This document shows positions 5,484-14,003 of a DNA stretch of 40,952 nucleotides, piece by piece. The position numbers and the translations under genes are program-made. Source of the DNA: Bdellovibrionales bacterium (GTDB lineage: Bacteria; Bdellovibrionota; Bdellovibrionia; Bdellovibrionales; UBA1609); contig SKLV01000001.1 in NCBI GenBank assembly GCA_007121385.1, positions 1 to 40,952 of the forward strand, given 5' to 3'. Positions within the stretch are counted from its first letter, which is position 1; each line of letters begins with the position of its first letter. The notes beneath the pieces were generated by a model. It was not told the DNA's origin. It worked only from the letters and a program-made list of their open reading frames with translations, and ran no database searches.

Positions 5484-6950
5484 TCACTCTCCGTAATCCC
5501 GGGCATTGATGCCATATTTCTCCAGCTTTCTCAGCAGTGTCTTTTTGGGAATATTGGCATGAAGGGCGGTCTGGTTGATGCGTCCTTTGAAAGTTTTAAG
5601 GGCCTTAATAATGAACTCTTTTTCAAAGGCCTCTTTGTGTTTGTTAAAATCCAGGCCCTCAGCCTCAGGAAGAAGGGAGTGGCTGACCAGGGACTCCGGC
5701 TCCGAGGAGGCCTCGGAAGCCTCCTTAGAGGCCGAAGCAAACTCACCCTTCAAATTGGCGGACTCGGGGTCCACGCCAGTGGCCCGAAGCAGGGACTCAG
5801 GCAGGGAGGCCAAGGTTAAAATAGGGCTTTCTTCCAGAATAAAGGCATGCTCGATGATATTCTCCAGTTCACGAATATTACCGGGCCAGTCGTACTTCAT
5901 CAGGACATTCATGGCCTCTGGAGAGACCGAGAATATTTTCTTGCCCTGAGCTTTACTGAACTTCTGCATAAACAGATTGACCAGATGACTCAGGTCGCTT
6001 TTTCTCTCGGCCAAGGAGGGGAGAAAGATCGGCATGACATTGAGTCGATAGTAAAGATCTTCGCGAAAGGTCCCCTGCTTCATCATCTCTTCCAGAGGAC
6101 GATTGGTGGCGGCGATGATTCTCACATGGGCATCAATTTCTCGGTTGGCTCCCACGGGGGTGAATTTGCGTTCTTGAAGCACTCTCAGAAGTTTGACCTG
6201 CATGGCCAGTGGCAAGTCACCAAGTTCATCCAAAAAGAGGGTTCCGCCTTCGGCGTACTGGAACCTGCCAATTTTCCTCTGGTCAGCTCCTGTGAAAGCC
6301 CCCTTTTCGTGACCAAAGAGCTCACTCTCAAAAAGGTTTTCTGGAATGGCCGAGCAGTTGATGGCCACAAAGTTTCCATCCTTGAAAGAGGAGTTAAAGT
6401 GAATGGCTCGAGCCACGAGCTCCTTACCTGTGCCCGAGGCTCCGCGGATCAGGACAGGGGTGTCCACCTTAGAGAGGCGAGTGATAATGTTGAAGACCTT
6501 TTTCATGGGCTCGGTTTGGCCAATGATTTTCCGCCCACTCTCAAACATCATAGGGGCTGAAGCGGCAACCTCTGAAATCATTGAGTAGGCGCTCATCGCC
6601 CGATGGATCATCTCCACCAGTTGATCTCCTCGCACCGGTTTGGCCACATAGTTGTAGGCCCCTTCTTTGACCACTTTGACAGCGTCTTCGATATTGGCGT
6701 AGGCGGTGAGAACTAAAACCACAATGGAGGGGTCGATCTCTTTAATGGCCTGCAGGGCTTCCAGGCCATTCATGCGGGGCATATCCACATCCAGAATCAC
6801 CACATTGTAATCCCTGTGCACCTGAACCTTTTCCACAGCATTGATGCCGTCAAAGGCCTCGTCCACATCAAAACCTCCAGCTGAGGTCAATGCCGACTTC
6901 ACCGAAAGGCGAAGTCCAGGGTCGTCGTCCACCACCAAAACTTTGATCAT
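5484..6950 (-). CDS. NtrC-family sigma-54-dependent response regulator
   Basis: This 488-aa three-domain activator has an N-terminal receiver with an acidic pocket (VVDDD) and phospho-acceptor Asp54 in ILDVDMP. A central AAA+ domain has the Walker A GASGTGKE at 170-177, the sigma-54-contacting GAFTGA loop at 217-222 and Walker B LFLDELGD at about 238-245. A C-terminal Fis-like helix-turn-helix is visible (RINQTALHANIPKKTLLRKL). About 60 Ser/Glu-rich linker residues separate the last two domains. It is co-transcribed with the CHASE2 kinase through an ATGA overlap, so that kinase is probably its partner. The genome should therefore encode RpoN. A sigma-54 promoter match is present upstream of fliL, but nothing links it to this regulator. 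Confidence 0.93.
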   Translation of the reverse strand: MIKVLVVDDDPGLRLSVKSALTSAGGFDVDEAFDGINAVEKVQVHRDYNVVILDVDMPRMNGLEALQAIKEIDPSIVVLVLTAYANIEDAVKVVKEGAYNYVAKPVRGDQLVEMIHRAMSAYSMISEVAASAPMMFESGRKIIGQTEPMKKVFNIITRLSKVDTPVLIRGASGTGKELVARAIHFNSSFKDGNFVAINCSAIPENLFESELFGHEKGAFTGADQRKIGRFQYAEGGTLFLDELGDLPLAMQVKLLRVLQERKFTPVGANREIDAHVRIIAATNRPLEEMMKQGTFREDLYYRLNVMPIFLPSLAERKSDLSHLVNLFMQKFSKAQGKKIFSVSPEAMNVLMKYDWPGNIRELENIIEHAFILEESPILTLASLPESLLRATGVDPESANLKGEFASASKEASEASSEPESLVSHSLLPEAEGLDFNKHKEAFEKEFIIKALKTFKGRINQTALHANIPKKTLLRKLEKYGINARDYGE

Positions 6951-8818
6951 ATCTGTTCCTCCTGAGCCCTTGGAGACTCAGTTAAATTCATGGGCAATTC
7001 AATACAAAAAGTGGAGCCTTTTTCCAATTGGCTCTCCACAGTGATGCGACCTTGGTGAAGGTCCACAAAATACTTGGCCAAAAAGAGCCCTAAGCCGGAG
7101 CCCTTAATGCTAGTCGAAGAGGCCTGGCGACTACGATAGAATTTAGTGAAAATGTTAGGCAAGTCTTCAGCGGCAATTCCATAGCCTTGGTCTGTAATTT
7201 GGATAAGAGCTCGACCATCCACCTCTTGGCTGCGGATCTGAATCTGAGTCTCTGGTGGGCTGTACTTGATGGCGTTCTCCAGCAGGTTGGTAAGAACTTG
7301 GCGAATCAAGTCTTCATCCATCTTCATACTGAACATGGGCTCAAGCTCCTGAAGAATCCGAATGTTTTTCTGTTGAGCAAGGTACTCGCATTTTTTCACC
7401 ACGTCCTGAATGAGAGAATTGATGTCGCGACTGCGCAGCTGAAGCTTGACCTCTTTACTCTCAATTCGGGTGAGATTGAGTATGGAGCCGATAAATTCCG
7501 CCAGTTCCTCGCTGGAGTGACTGATGGACTCAACAGCGGTTTTTTGTTCAGGGCTCAGAGGTTGTCTCTCTTTGAGGACCAGTTCAGCCATACCCTGAAT
7601 ACGGGCGAGAGGGGTCTTGAGATCATGGGACATCATGCGCATGAAGTTGCTTTTGAGCTCCTCCACTTGGGTGAGAAGCTGGTTTCGCTGGTAGTACTCC
7701 CAACTGCGCCGGTTTTCTACAATCAGACGATAGGGCACAAAAAAGTAATAGCAGACAAAAACAGCCAAAAGAGGTTGAGCCATAGGCAGCCAAAAACCAA
7801 AAGCGGAAAAAACCGCTGCAGCGAGCAGAATAAATGTGGCGATCACTCCGCCCAGAAGGAGGAGGCCCCGGGCGGGAGGAGCAAAAAACAAAAGGGCTAA
7901 AGTGAGCCAGGCCACTAGGGCTATAGTGAGAAAGTTGAGTCCTTTGGGGCTCCGGCGGGGGGCCTGATCCAGAATAAGGGTGTCCAGGGCATTGGCATGG
8001 GCCTCGGCCAAGGTGAGAGCGGTGATGTCCCGAGACAGAGGAGTGGAGAGGTAAAAGCGACTGGAGCGGAGCGAGTCATCTCCAATGATCACCACTTTGT
8101 CAGCCCAACGATTCAAGCTCTCGGGGTTCCCATCTCGGGCGTCTAGAAACTCAGTGCTCGGGTAGGTCCCGGCGGGGCGAAAGGCAATATAGCCTTGAAT
8201 TACATCGAGAACTGAGAAAAGTCCCCGAGGTCTTTCCGCCCCGAGCTCTTTGGCCAAAGCCCTGTGTAGGGTCGGCTGGTCGTCTATTGAATAAATAAAA
8301 CGTCTTGAGACGCCATCTCTTGCAAAGAGAGTGATGTCGCTGCCGATGGGGGCGGGCAGAGGCTCAATGAAGTCAAAGGGTGAGGGCAAGGGAGGCAGCC
8401 GCCCCTGCCCCTTGGCGGGAGAGCTGAAACTGGCAAAGTAGATCGGAGTCTGCATCCGTTCAGTGAGTTCACCAAAGGCCTCAGCCTCTTCAGGGCTATG
8501 GCGCAGTTCAGAGGGGTCAAAGCTGTAGACAATGGCCCGGGGTTGCCCCGCCTCAAGCCCCTCAAGGAGGAGCTGGTGATCTTGGAGGCGATCTTCTCGG
8601 CCCAGCTGAGTCAAAGTGTCAGGGCGGATCATGATCAATTCAATCAAGCCTGAGGTGGGGGCAGGGGTTTTAAGTCGGGAGCGCCAATCGTAGGTCCAGG
8701 CCTCCAAGTAGTGGAGGGGAAACTGGACAATCACAAAAGCCAGGCCCAAAGCCACAAGGGCCATCAGGGCTCCGGCCTTGAAAAAGCTCAAAATACGGGG
8801 GTGAGGGGATTCGCCCAT
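6947..8818 (-). CDS. CHASE2-domain membrane histidine kinase
   Basis: This is a sensor kinase of 623 aa. An N-terminal membrane segment (about residues 13-34) is followed by a large extracytoplasmic CHASE2-like domain to about residue 295. Closely packed membrane helices (about 298-365) come next, then a HisKA domain with phospho-acceptor His398 in MMSHDLKTPLAR. The HATPase_c domain has the N box (NLLENAIKYSPPE), G1 (DQGYGIA) and G2 (GSGLGLFLAK). The ligand is unknown. The gene precedes the sigma-54 regulator with a 4-nt overlap and follows a class A PBP gene by 90 bp. An envelope or cell-wall signal is therefore a reasonable guess, but only a guess. Confidence 0.92.
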   Translation of the reverse strand: MGESPHPRILSFFKAGALMALVALGLAFVIVQFPLHYLEAWTYDWRSRLKTPAPTSGLIELIMIRPDTLTQLGREDRLQDHQLLLEGLEAGQPRAIVYSFDPSELRHSPEEAEAFGELTERMQTPIYFASFSSPAKGQGRLPPLPSPFDFIEPLPAPIGSDITLFARDGVSRRFIYSIDDQPTLHRALAKELGAERPRGLFSVLDVIQGYIAFRPAGTYPSTEFLDARDGNPESLNRWADKVVIIGDDSLRSSRFYLSTPLSRDITALTLAEAHANALDTLILDQAPRRSPKGLNFLTIALVAWLTLALLFFAPPARGLLLLGGVIATFILLAAAVFSAFGFWLPMAQPLLAVFVCYYFFVPYRLIVENRRSWEYYQRNQLLTQVEELKSNFMRMMSHDLKTPLARIQGMAELVLKERQPLSPEQKTAVESISHSSEELAEFIGSILNLTRIESKEVKLQLRSRDINSLIQDVVKKCEYLAQQKNIRILQELEPMFSMKMDEDLIRQVLTNLLENAIKYSPPETQIQIRSQEVDGRALIQITDQGYGIAAEDLPNIFTKFYRSRQASSTSIKGSGLGLFLAKYFVDLHQGRITVESQLEKGSTFCIELPMNLTESPRAQEEQI

Positions 8819-11293: not shown

Positions 11294-11572
11294 ATGAAAA
11301 TCACAGAAAAACAGCTGCGTCGGTTAACTCAATTGGTGATGAATGAGCTCAAAAACCCGGCTATTGCCACCTTAAAGGATCGGGAAGATAAGATTGCTGA
11401 GAGGGCCGTCGGTATTTTGATGAAGGACCTGGAAAGGGAAAAAGCCTTGGATGTCGAAGTTCATCAGATGATGGATCAAATGGAAAGGCAAAACCCCGGG
11501 GAGTTTCAGCGCTACAAGATGTTTCCCCTACTGAAAAAGCGCATGGCCAAAGAAAAGGGGGTTATCATATGA
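11294..11572 (+). CDS. DUF507 family protein (first of tandem pair)
   Basis: This is a small charged protein of 92 aa from the ATG at 11294. The sequence MKITEKQLRRLTQLVMNELK and the following acid/base-rich helices match the DUF507 family, which is common in deltaproteobacteria and Aquificae and has no established function. An in-frame TTG at 11258 would add 12 residues, but it coincides with a perfect TTGACA box and gives an unlikely N-terminus. The stop overlaps the start of the second DUF507 gene as ATGA, indicating an operon with translational coupling. There is no signal peptide, so it is probably cytoplasmic. Confidence 0.85.
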   Translation: MKITEKQLRRLTQLVMNELKNPAIATLKDREDKIAERAVGILMKDLEREKALDVEVHQMMDQMERQNPGEFQRYKMFPLLKKRMAKEKGVII

Positions 11573-11844
11573 TCTTGTCCGAAGAGAGGCAGACCCATTG
11601 GGCCCACTTGATCTGTGATGGGCTTTACCATGATGATTTGGTGGACTACGAGGATGATGACCAAGCTCTGAGAGCTATCAAGAGAGCCGTGGTCCAGTTT
11701 GTCAAAGAGGCCGGTGACATCGACCAGAGAGCACGGGAAAAAGTGGCCTCTCTGAAACGAGGTGTGGTAGAAGGCAGCCCCGAATGGGACGTTTTATACA
11801 GTAAATACTTTGAAGAGGAGATGCTTCGTCGTGGCAGCAAGTAA
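11569..11844 (+). CDS. DUF507 family protein (second of tandem pair)
   Basis: This 91-aa protein is related to the gene before it: a similar N-terminal block (LSEERQTHWAHLICDGLY), then acidic and basic helices, and an ending in YSKYFEEEMLRRGSK. The pair probably arose by duplication and may form a heterodimer, which is inference. It starts inside the stop of the first gene and its own last 14 bases overlap the next gene. All three are therefore likely translated together. Function is not known for the family. Confidence 0.85.
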   Translation: MILSEERQTHWAHLICDGLYHDDLVDYEDDDQALRAIKRAVVQFVKEAGDIDQRAREKVASLKRGVVEGSPEWDVLYSKYFEEEMLRRGSK

Positions 11845-12457
11845 AAAGAAACAAAAAAAGAAAGTCAGCCCTAAGAAAAAAGTGAGCGCAAAGAAGAAGG
11901 CGCCAGCAAAGAAGAAGGCGCCAGCACAAAGGAAGAAAAAAGCGACTCCAAAGAAGAAAGTAGCTGCAAAAAAGAAGACCACTAAGAAAAAAGCAGTGAG
12001 CCCAAAGAAAGCCGTGGCCCAAAAGAAAGCGGCGACCAAGAAAAAAGCCGTGGTTAAAAAGAAAGCGGCCCAATCCGCTTTGGGAAAAATGACTGCCACA
12101 ATAAAAAAGGCAGCGCAAAAGACAGTACGGCAGGTGGCCGATAAGGTGCAGTCACAGGTGTTTAGTTTTAAGTTTTCTCCTCTTGATGATCGTGTCTTGA
12201 TTCGCCGGGAGGGGGCCAGTGACCGAACTCCTGGGGGACTCTATATACCGGAATCCGCCAGTGATCGCCCACTGAGAGGCAAGGTTTTGGCCATCGGACC
12301 TGGAAGGCGCAATAAGAAAGGTCAGATTCGCCCCATGGATGTGCAGGTTGGAGATCAAATTATTTTTTCTGACTATGCTGGAGTCTCTGTGCACTGGCAG
12401 GGAGAGGATTTGCTCATTCTCCGAGAAGAAGAGATCTTAGGAGTGATGAGAAATTAG
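11831..12457 (+). CDS. GroES (Cpn10) domain fused to a histone-H1-like lysine-rich N-terminal tail
   Basis: This 208-aa protein has two unlike parts. Residues 1-78 are Lys/Ala/Pro rich, with 37 lysines and no acidic residue, in repeated KKK-x-x-x units as in bacterial H1-like proteins. Residues about 114-208 are a full Cpn10 domain: SPLDDRVLIRR, a mobile-loop region with GGLYIP, RGKVLAIGPG, VGDQIIFSDYAG, and the end DLLILREEEILGVM. A helical linker of about 30 residues joins them. I chose GTG at 11831 because AGGAG lies 10 nt before it. A TTG at 11810 would add 7 residues. No groEL is adjacent. Nucleic-acid binding by the tail and GroEL capping by the domain are expected from family knowledge, but the combined role is unknown. 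Confidence 0.85.
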   Translation: MAASKKKQKKKVSPKKKVSAKKKAPAKKKAPAQRKKKATPKKKVAAKKKTTKKKAVSPKKAVAQKKAATKKKAVVKKKAAQSALGKMTATIKKAAQKTVRQVADKVQSQVFSFKFSPLDDRVLIRREGASDRTPGGLYIPESASDRPLRGKVLAIGPGRRNKKGQIRPMDVQVGDQIIFSDYAGVSVHWQGEDLLILREEEILGVMRN

Positions 12458-12572: not shown

Positions 12573-14003
12573 ATGAAAAAAACTTCAACCCCCCAATGGA
12601 TGCTGGCTCTGGCTTTGAGCCTGGGGCTTATGGGTTCACAATCCCAGGCCATGGACTTCAAGTGGTCGGGAACCTACCGCATTGAGGGCTACCAGTTTTT
12701 CAATCCTGAATTGGATAAGGGTGTCAATAAGAGCTACGGGCTTCACCATTTGATTCTGCGTCCGGAGATCACGGCTGGTGATGGTTTCATGATTCGAGCC
12801 CGCTTGGATTTGCTGAACTCCAGTGACTACCCCAACTCCCAGCTGGGCCAGTTCTTTGGCCACGGACCGGGAGTAGCAACTCCAGGTTTTGCCGGAGAGA
12901 GTAACACTTTGGGTACGGCCCAGGCCTCGGACACAGTGGCGGTGAATGAACTCTATTTAACCTACATTCAAGAGCATGGAGCCCTTATTGTGGGGCGAGC
13001 TCCGGTTCACTTTGGTTTGGGTATGACTCACAACGCAGGCCTAGGCCCCTTTGATCACTGGCTAAATAACAGGGATTTGCTGGGCTACCGCGTGGTGATG
13101 GGCAACTTCTATCTGCTGCCCATGTTGGCCAAGGTCAATGAGGGGGACATCACTCAGGGAGAAGATGTCAACGAGCTCCTCTTTCACGCCCAGTATGAGG
13201 ACTTGGAGACCGAACTGGAAATGGGTTTCTTTTTTCAGCGGCGTCGAGGTAGCGCTTTGGCCAGTGATGCTCCTGTGGGTGTAAACCCCGGTGAGGTTCT
13301 GGGGGGAACTGGAGCCATAGCCAACGACTCTTTTGAAATCGAAAACTTCAACTTCTATGTGCAAAGACAGATCGACCTCCACAAATTGGGCCTGGAAGTG
13401 GGCATGCAGAGGGGGCGCAGCGGGGTGAGAACAGCTGGTGGAGAGCCGGTGGAGTTTGCCGGCTACGGGATGGCCGCTGAGTACGAGATCCAACCCCAGG
13501 GCTCTCCCTGGACGTGGAACCTCAAAGCTGGCTATGCCACAGGCGACAGCCCCGCTACAGACGAGAAGTTTGAGGGCTACCTCTTTCACCGCAACTACAA
13601 TGTGGCCATGATGCTGTTCAATCAACCTCTGGGACAGTCTGATATTCTGCGCACCGATCTGCAGGCCGAGGGTCCTGCCAGCCGGGGAGCGCGGGTGGAC
13701 ACAGAGACTCTCAGCAATGTGATCTATGCCTCTCCGGGCTTTCGCTATGACTGGAGAGACTCCTGGGCTGTGGAGGGAGCTTTGACCTTTGGGTGGTTGG
13801 ACACCAACCCCATTGTGGGCCAGGATGTGGGCAAGGACTTGGGTTTTGAATTGGATTTGGCTTTAAATTACTCTCCCAGACAGGGAGTGCTCTGGGTCAA
13901 TCAGGTGGGGATGCTCTTTCCAGGATCCGCCTTTGAGGCCGGGGGACAGCAAGACGCCAGTTTTGCTTGGGGTATGGTTTCGAAGGCCGCTATCAGCTTC
14001 TGA
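12573..14003 (+). CDS. Outer-membrane beta-barrel protein (porin-like)
   Basis: The 476-aa product has a clear signal peptide, MKKTSTPQWMLALALSLGLM, cleaved after SQSQA. The mature part has alternating hydrophobic/aromatic strands, many Gly, Asp and Asn turns, and a C-terminal aromatic strand ending in AISF. This is typical of outer-membrane barrels recognised by the BAM complex. The substrate or specific family is not recognised. A GGAGAGG site precedes the ATG at good spacing. The gene stands alone on its strand: 115 bp separate it from the GroES fusion and an intrinsic terminator follows. It is therefore probably expressed from its own promoter, though I found no convincing -35/-10 pair. 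Confidence 0.8.
   Translation: MKKTSTPQWMLALALSLGLMGSQSQAMDFKWSGTYRIEGYQFFNPELDKGVNKSYGLHHLILRPEITAGDGFMIRARLDLLNSSDYPNSQLGQFFGHGPGVATPGFAGESNTLGTAQASDTVAVNELYLTYIQEHGALIVGRAPVHFGLGMTHNAGLGPFDHWLNNRDLLGYRVVMGNFYLLPMLAKVNEGDITQGEDVNELLFHAQYEDLETELEMGFFFQRRRGSALASDAPVGVNPGEVLGGTGAIANDSFEIENFNFYVQRQIDLHKLGLEVGMQRGRSGVRTAGGEPVEFAGYGMAAEYEIQPQGSPWTWNLKAGYATGDSPATDEKFEGYLFHRNYNVAMMLFNQPLGQSDILRTDLQAEGPASRGARVDTETLSNVIYASPGFRYDWRDSWAVEGALTFGWLDTNPIVGQDVGKDLGFELDLALNYSPRQGVLWVNQVGMLFPGSAFEAGGQQDASFAWGMVSKAAISF

Follow-up and report, generated by a model that had tools for sequence, protein, structure and literature searches.

The window, a 40,952-nucleotide stretch of a Bdellovibrionales genome, encodes on its forward strand a tailed co-chaperonin of 208 residues, GroES2, which is read from a GTG start (groES2, 11831 to 12457) and is the orthologue of bd3349 of Bdellovibrio bacteriovorus HD100. 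A Lys-rich N-terminal tail is fused to the Cpn10 domain in all 104 GroES2 orthologues of Bdellovibrionales (97 second Cpn10 copies plus seven added later), and codon-level comparison shows that this tail is real protein, under selection and read in the same frame as Cpn10. The explanation we favor, with a probability of roughly 0.45, is that GroES2 is a putative paralogous GroEL lid whose seven disordered polycationic arms would tether the chaperonin to nucleic acid.

The groES2 gene and its orthologues

Read from its N-terminus, GroES2 opens with a disordered Lys-rich tail (residues 1 to ~83; 11831 to 12079), continues through a basic helix that connects the tail to Cpn10 (residues 85–114; 12083 to 12172), and closes with the Cpn10 (GroES) domain itself (residues 114–205; 12170 to 12445), all on the forward strand. 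The initial annotation had counted 37 lysines and no acidic residue in the first 78 positions, and the translation agrees, giving 37 Lys, one Arg and no Asp or Glu; at a chance expectation of 7% Lys, at least 37 in 78 residues has a probability of ~3e-22. Lys density peaks at 12 per 20 residues, and the earliest acidic residue is at position 104. The extent assigned to the tail needed correction even as its composition stood: the boundary moves to ~83, the basic helix follows, and the complete N-terminal extension amounts to ~115 residues with 43 Lys, two Arg and one Asp. In the AlphaFold2 model the tail is unstructured (pLDDT ~50–59), a helix spans residues 85–114, and the GroES fold reaches a pLDDT of ~90; the basic helix is also present in a congener (L054), and the top Foldseek matches of the model are GroES/Cpn10 structures. 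The domain is intact, as had been proposed: Pfam PF00166 aligns to residues 114–205 over profile positions 1–92 of 93, scoring 98.1 bits where 21.1 bits would suffice, and the mobile loop (EGASDRTPGGLYIPESASDR; 12209 to 12268, forward strand), delimited by alignment and a triplet count, contains TPGGLYIP with the hydrophobic GroEL-binding triplet LYI. Canonical GroES (PF00166) has the same fold, mobile loop and domain length, but is a protein of ~95–100 residues, tail-less as the initial annotation had it, encoded beside groEL, whereas GroES2 bears its ~115-residue polycationic extension and is encoded away from groEL.

Upstream on the same strand, in a putative operon with groES2, are a gene for the N-terminal half of DUF507 (92 residues; 11294 to 11572) and one for its C-terminal half (91 residues; 11569 to 11844), both matched by Pfam PF04368; the latter overlaps the start of groES2 by 14 nt. 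An AGGAG Shine–Dalgarno-like motif (11816 to 11820, forward strand), conserved in relatives, sits 10 nt ahead of the groES2 GTG. This gene order is kept in 63 of the 97 loci. DUF507 went undetected in the listed genomes of Bdellovibrio (genus g30), where the GroES2 tail is nevertheless present, so that a tail arising as a by-product of the overlap was rejected. Separately, of the Bdellovibrionales genomes with a DUF507 match, nearly all carry it as two genes that overlap by ATGA, and one (G109, L133) as a single open reading frame; judged by sequence, the split is a conserved gene fission or fusion. On the 3′ side of groES2 lies a gene for 476 residues (12573 to 14003) with a weak TIGR04551 match (67 bits against a cut-off of 300) and no Pfam match. 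A scan for promoters and terminators returned nothing above chance.

The initial annotation had allowed for a frameshift or an assembly error joining two genes, and for relatives in which tail and Cpn10 are separate proteins. The window gene is free of frameshifts, the same fusion occurs in a congener whose genome was assembled independently (G135, L054/L157) as well as in the order's other orthologues, which rules out an assembly join, and no relative with separate proteins was found. The second, normal groES that it had proposed looking for is indeed there: in the window species genome (2.40 Mb, 97% complete), an ordinary 100-residue groES (L093) adjoins the sole groEL on contig C114, and groES2 sits away from this pair. 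HD100 likewise has one groEL, beside its ordinary groES1. Two Cpn10 genes per genome is the rule among 141 Bdellovibrionales genomes. One assembly (G093; 99% complete, 2.1 Mb) gave a match to neither groES nor groEL, reflecting either an assembly gap or real chaperonin loss.

Tail statistics were compiled from the 95 of 97 second copies with a readable start. The two excluded were G108, whose groES2 is truncated by a contig end, and G100, a 61%-complete metagenome-assembled genome (MAG) in which an in-frame stop interrupts an otherwise Lys-rich tail frame; the latter counts against the favored explanation. In the 95, the tail is a low-complexity Lys/Ala/Ser/Thr/Pro segment of 48–215 residues (median 105) containing 36% Lys, 20% Ala and 1.4% Asp plus Glu, with at most four acidic residues per tail. 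None of the groES1 copies or outgroup GroES sequences that were read has such a tail, and the second GroES copies read elsewhere in the phylum are of ordinary length and tail-less. When 147 Cpn10 domains were placed in a tree, a branch with SH-aLRT support of 99 set GroES2, including HD100 bd3349, apart from the groEL-linked GroES; so short a domain leaves many of the inner forks without resolution, and the terminal branches of GroES2 are longer than those of GroES1. A five-row profile run against named genomes recovered eight loci, one of them an ordinary GroES in a 'Magnetococcales' MAG, and the Cpn10 proteins found on viral contigs had no Lys tail. A record titled 'Streptomyces griseus isolate HRS-HS12-bin-158' (L164) holds a GroES2 of Bdellovibrionales type, and its title is probably wrong. 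In an exploratory comparison that ignores phylogeny, genomes with GroES2 are larger than those without, both across the order (median 3.4 vs. 2.55 Mb, p ~2e-6) and in family f1 (3.2 vs. 2.0 Mb, p ~7e-4).

Queried alone, the tail matched only bL21 in the window species genome. In most parsed members (L183/L156, in the window species on contig C123 at ~6873–7499; L173–L197), bL21 has a C-terminal tail of ~50–108 residues with 24–46% Lys; the exceptions are two with 15–30 residues past the domain and one with none.

The tail as a translated protein segment

The initial annotation had called the protein unfamiliar, which holds only in part. HD100 groES2 (bd3349) has been published, with an annotated length of 224 residues, but its tail was set aside as a mis-annotated repetitive region and the start was moved to an internal Met, leaving 117 residues (Lambert et al., 2012, PMC3464611). 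Locus L039 in the present set encodes 224 residues from an upstream GTG, has a Met at codon 108, and yields 117 residues from that Met; these numbers match the published ones, so L039 is bd3349 or a near-identical gene. GroES2 is thus already known, while an order-wide GroES with a conserved H1-like tail was not found in the searched literature, in which no relevant paper on Lys-rich GroES extensions turned up.

That the tail DNA is untranslated is a reading invited by its repetitive, low-complexity character and by the internal ATG of HD100, yet it is scarcely credible in light of the codon-level evidence. Over the 306 bases upstream of the proposed Met, 27 differences separate L036 from L039, of which 20 fall on third positions, and pN/pS in the tail is 0.11 in frame, as opposed to values above one or stops in the other forward frames. 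One antisense frame is open with a ratio of 0.25, as expected given a conserved sense frame. Five independent close pairs together show 37, 28 and 121 differences at codon positions 1, 2 and 3, and every tail indel between close pairs is a multiple of three. The tail dN/dS of close orthologue pairs, 0.06–0.26, again indicates strong purifying selection, with 0–0.07 for the Cpn10 domain. Moreover, an internal ATG is absent from 54 of the 95 orthologues, and five have no ATG, GTG or TTG whatsoever between tail start and Cpn10 and hence no alternative start. The start context is itself conserved, an AGGAG-like motif being followed by GTG or ATG and then GCN, that is, (V/M)A, and the Lys-rich frame is kept in 104 of 104 orthologues. 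Since low-complexity composition can bias ratios of the dN/dS type, most weight is given to the comparison with the other frames and to the evidence from start codons.

Proteomics may have overlooked these tails, as trypsin cuts Lys-rich tails into tiny peptides, a point that the authors of the AlgP work also make for such tails (PMC9239181). Counting against the favored explanation, GroES goes unmentioned in the main text of a nucleoid proteomics study (Hocher, 2023, PMC10627809), with the caveat that trypsin would destroy the tail and that the cells were sampled in attack phase. Also on that side, the text of a 2025 predation proteome names, of the GroES proteins, only GroES1.

Probable GroEL capping and possible targets of the arms

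The hydrophobic triplet of the mobile loop is the element through which GroES binds GroEL. GroES2 of the window species carries GG-LYI, and nearly all GroES2 preserve a GG followed by such a triplet; together with the single groEL of the window species and HD100, this points to that one GroEL as the most likely partner of GroES2, which would cap it as a seven-membered lid. Seven tails per ring would weigh 42–169 kDa across orthologues, and 88 kDa in the window species with a net charge of ~+44 per arm and ~+308 per ring. The GroEL cage accommodates ~60 kDa, for which this mass is too great, so the arms should lie outside, where they would be free to bind polyanions, most likely nucleoid DNA or nascent or ribosomal RNA. 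In this manner, some of the GroEL chambers, or lids of mixed GroES1/GroES2 composition, could be brought to nucleic acid by the arms, at a time set by the stage at which groES2 is expressed. The initial annotation had floated DNA compaction in a resting stage; by RT-PCR, HD100 groES2 is low in attack phase and rises 2–4 h into predation, when progeny septate (PMC3464611), and the Bdellovibrio chromosome is highly compacted during septation and attack phase (review, PMC11318664).

Nucleic acid is favored as the presumed target, and DNA is tentatively placed somewhat ahead because late expression coincides with chromosome compaction. A more specific version, which we offer tentatively, is that of a nucleoid-docked heptameric lid, whose H1-like arms would both put GroEL on the chromosome and help to condense it in the switch from filament to attack-phase cell. 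As judged by composition, an H1-like, nucleic-acid-binding tail fits.

Somewhat unlikely, in our estimation, is an arm specific to RNA or the ribosome, which would bring GroEL to nascent chains or mRNA for co-translational folding. The Lys-rich C-terminal tail of bL21 in the same genome and in most parsed relatives makes such a tether conceivable, as it shows that Lys-rich tails ride on RNA-bound proteins in Bdellovibrionales. However, the bL21 tails have acidic spacers, and tailed bL21 also occurs in genomes that lack GroES2; no functional connection between bL21 and GroES2 is apparent.

It is doubtful that GroES2 has ceased to be a GroEL partner, with the Cpn10 heptamer serving merely as a scaffold that multiplies the arms of a DNA-condensing nucleoid protein. 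Such a protein would suit the late expression, which falls together with septation and with compaction of the chromosome (PMC3464611, PMC11318664), and the long end branches of GroES2 relative to GroES1. Congruent with it, the tail is kept in G139 (L236) and G140 (L235), which belong to one family, despite a degenerate mobile loop, which in G139 lacks the GG-hydrophobic triplet; by this sequence criterion, GroEL binding may be lost in these two and is perhaps not universal in GroES2. Nearly all members nevertheless retain GG and the triplet, the domain dN/dS is only 0–0.07, and most GroEL-contact residues are conserved in GroES2 (Lambert et al., 2012, PMC3464611).

Polyphosphate, rather than nucleic acid, is an improbable principal target, whether through lysine polyphosphate modification or through granule tethering. 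Segments with at least 9 Lys per 20 residues bound polyphosphate in P. aeruginosa (PMC12077175), a density exceeded by the 12 per 20 of the window tail, and AlgP, with its KPAA tail, localizes to polyphosphate granules (PMC9239181). Polyphosphate binding would not be exclusive, though, as polycations bind any polyanion. Most unlikely among the fates of the arms is a position inside the cage, where they would alter the chemistry offered to special substrates: as the wall of the cage carries negative charge, a cationic filling is conceivable in mixed lids with few tailed subunits, but seven tails, whose mass equals or exceeds what the cage can take, would leave no space for substrate.

Related systems and significance

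T4 Gp31 and the chloroplast Cpn20/Cpn23 are, like GroES2, alternative GroEL lids built on the Cpn10 fold. Gp31 alters the cage by enlarging it, and Cpn20/Cpn23 are tandem Cpn10 proteins; unlike GroES2, none has a polycationic tail. The C-terminal tail of eukaryotic histone H1 and the tail of mycobacterial HupB resemble that of GroES2 in composition only, GroES2 having neither a histone fold nor an HU domain. The tail of GroES2 is a long Lys/Ala/Pro-rich segment nearly devoid of acidic residues in the 95 orthologues, and is predicted by AlphaFold2 to be disordered in the window species; the KPAA-repeat proteins AlgP and PhaF of Pseudomonas have a similarly disordered, low-complexity Lys/Ala/Pro-rich tail (PMC9239181). 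Theirs is C-terminal on a helical protein, whereas that of GroES2 is N-terminal on a ring-forming co-chaperonin, and no homology of the tails is claimed. AlgP/PhaF and histone H1 tails are reported to bind DNA, and those of AlgP/PhaF to associate with polyphosphate granules (PMC9239181). The closest relative is HD100 GroES2 (Bd3349) itself, of the same clade, whose published form is 117 residues long without a tail (PMC3464611); here, the tail is coding, selected and order-wide.

The immediate consequence is a corrected gene model for bd3349, without which later knock-outs, tagging and structural studies would be directed at the wrong protein. To our knowledge, the variant GroEL lids described so far change the folding cage; a lid with polycationic arms, if true, would instead be a means of positioning chaperonins within the cell. 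GroES2 also becomes a concrete candidate among the proteins that remodel Bdellovibrio chromatin at septation and in attack phase, and a nucleoid-docked lid, if borne out, would constitute a link between chaperonin and chromatin that a whole order of predatory bacteria has conserved.
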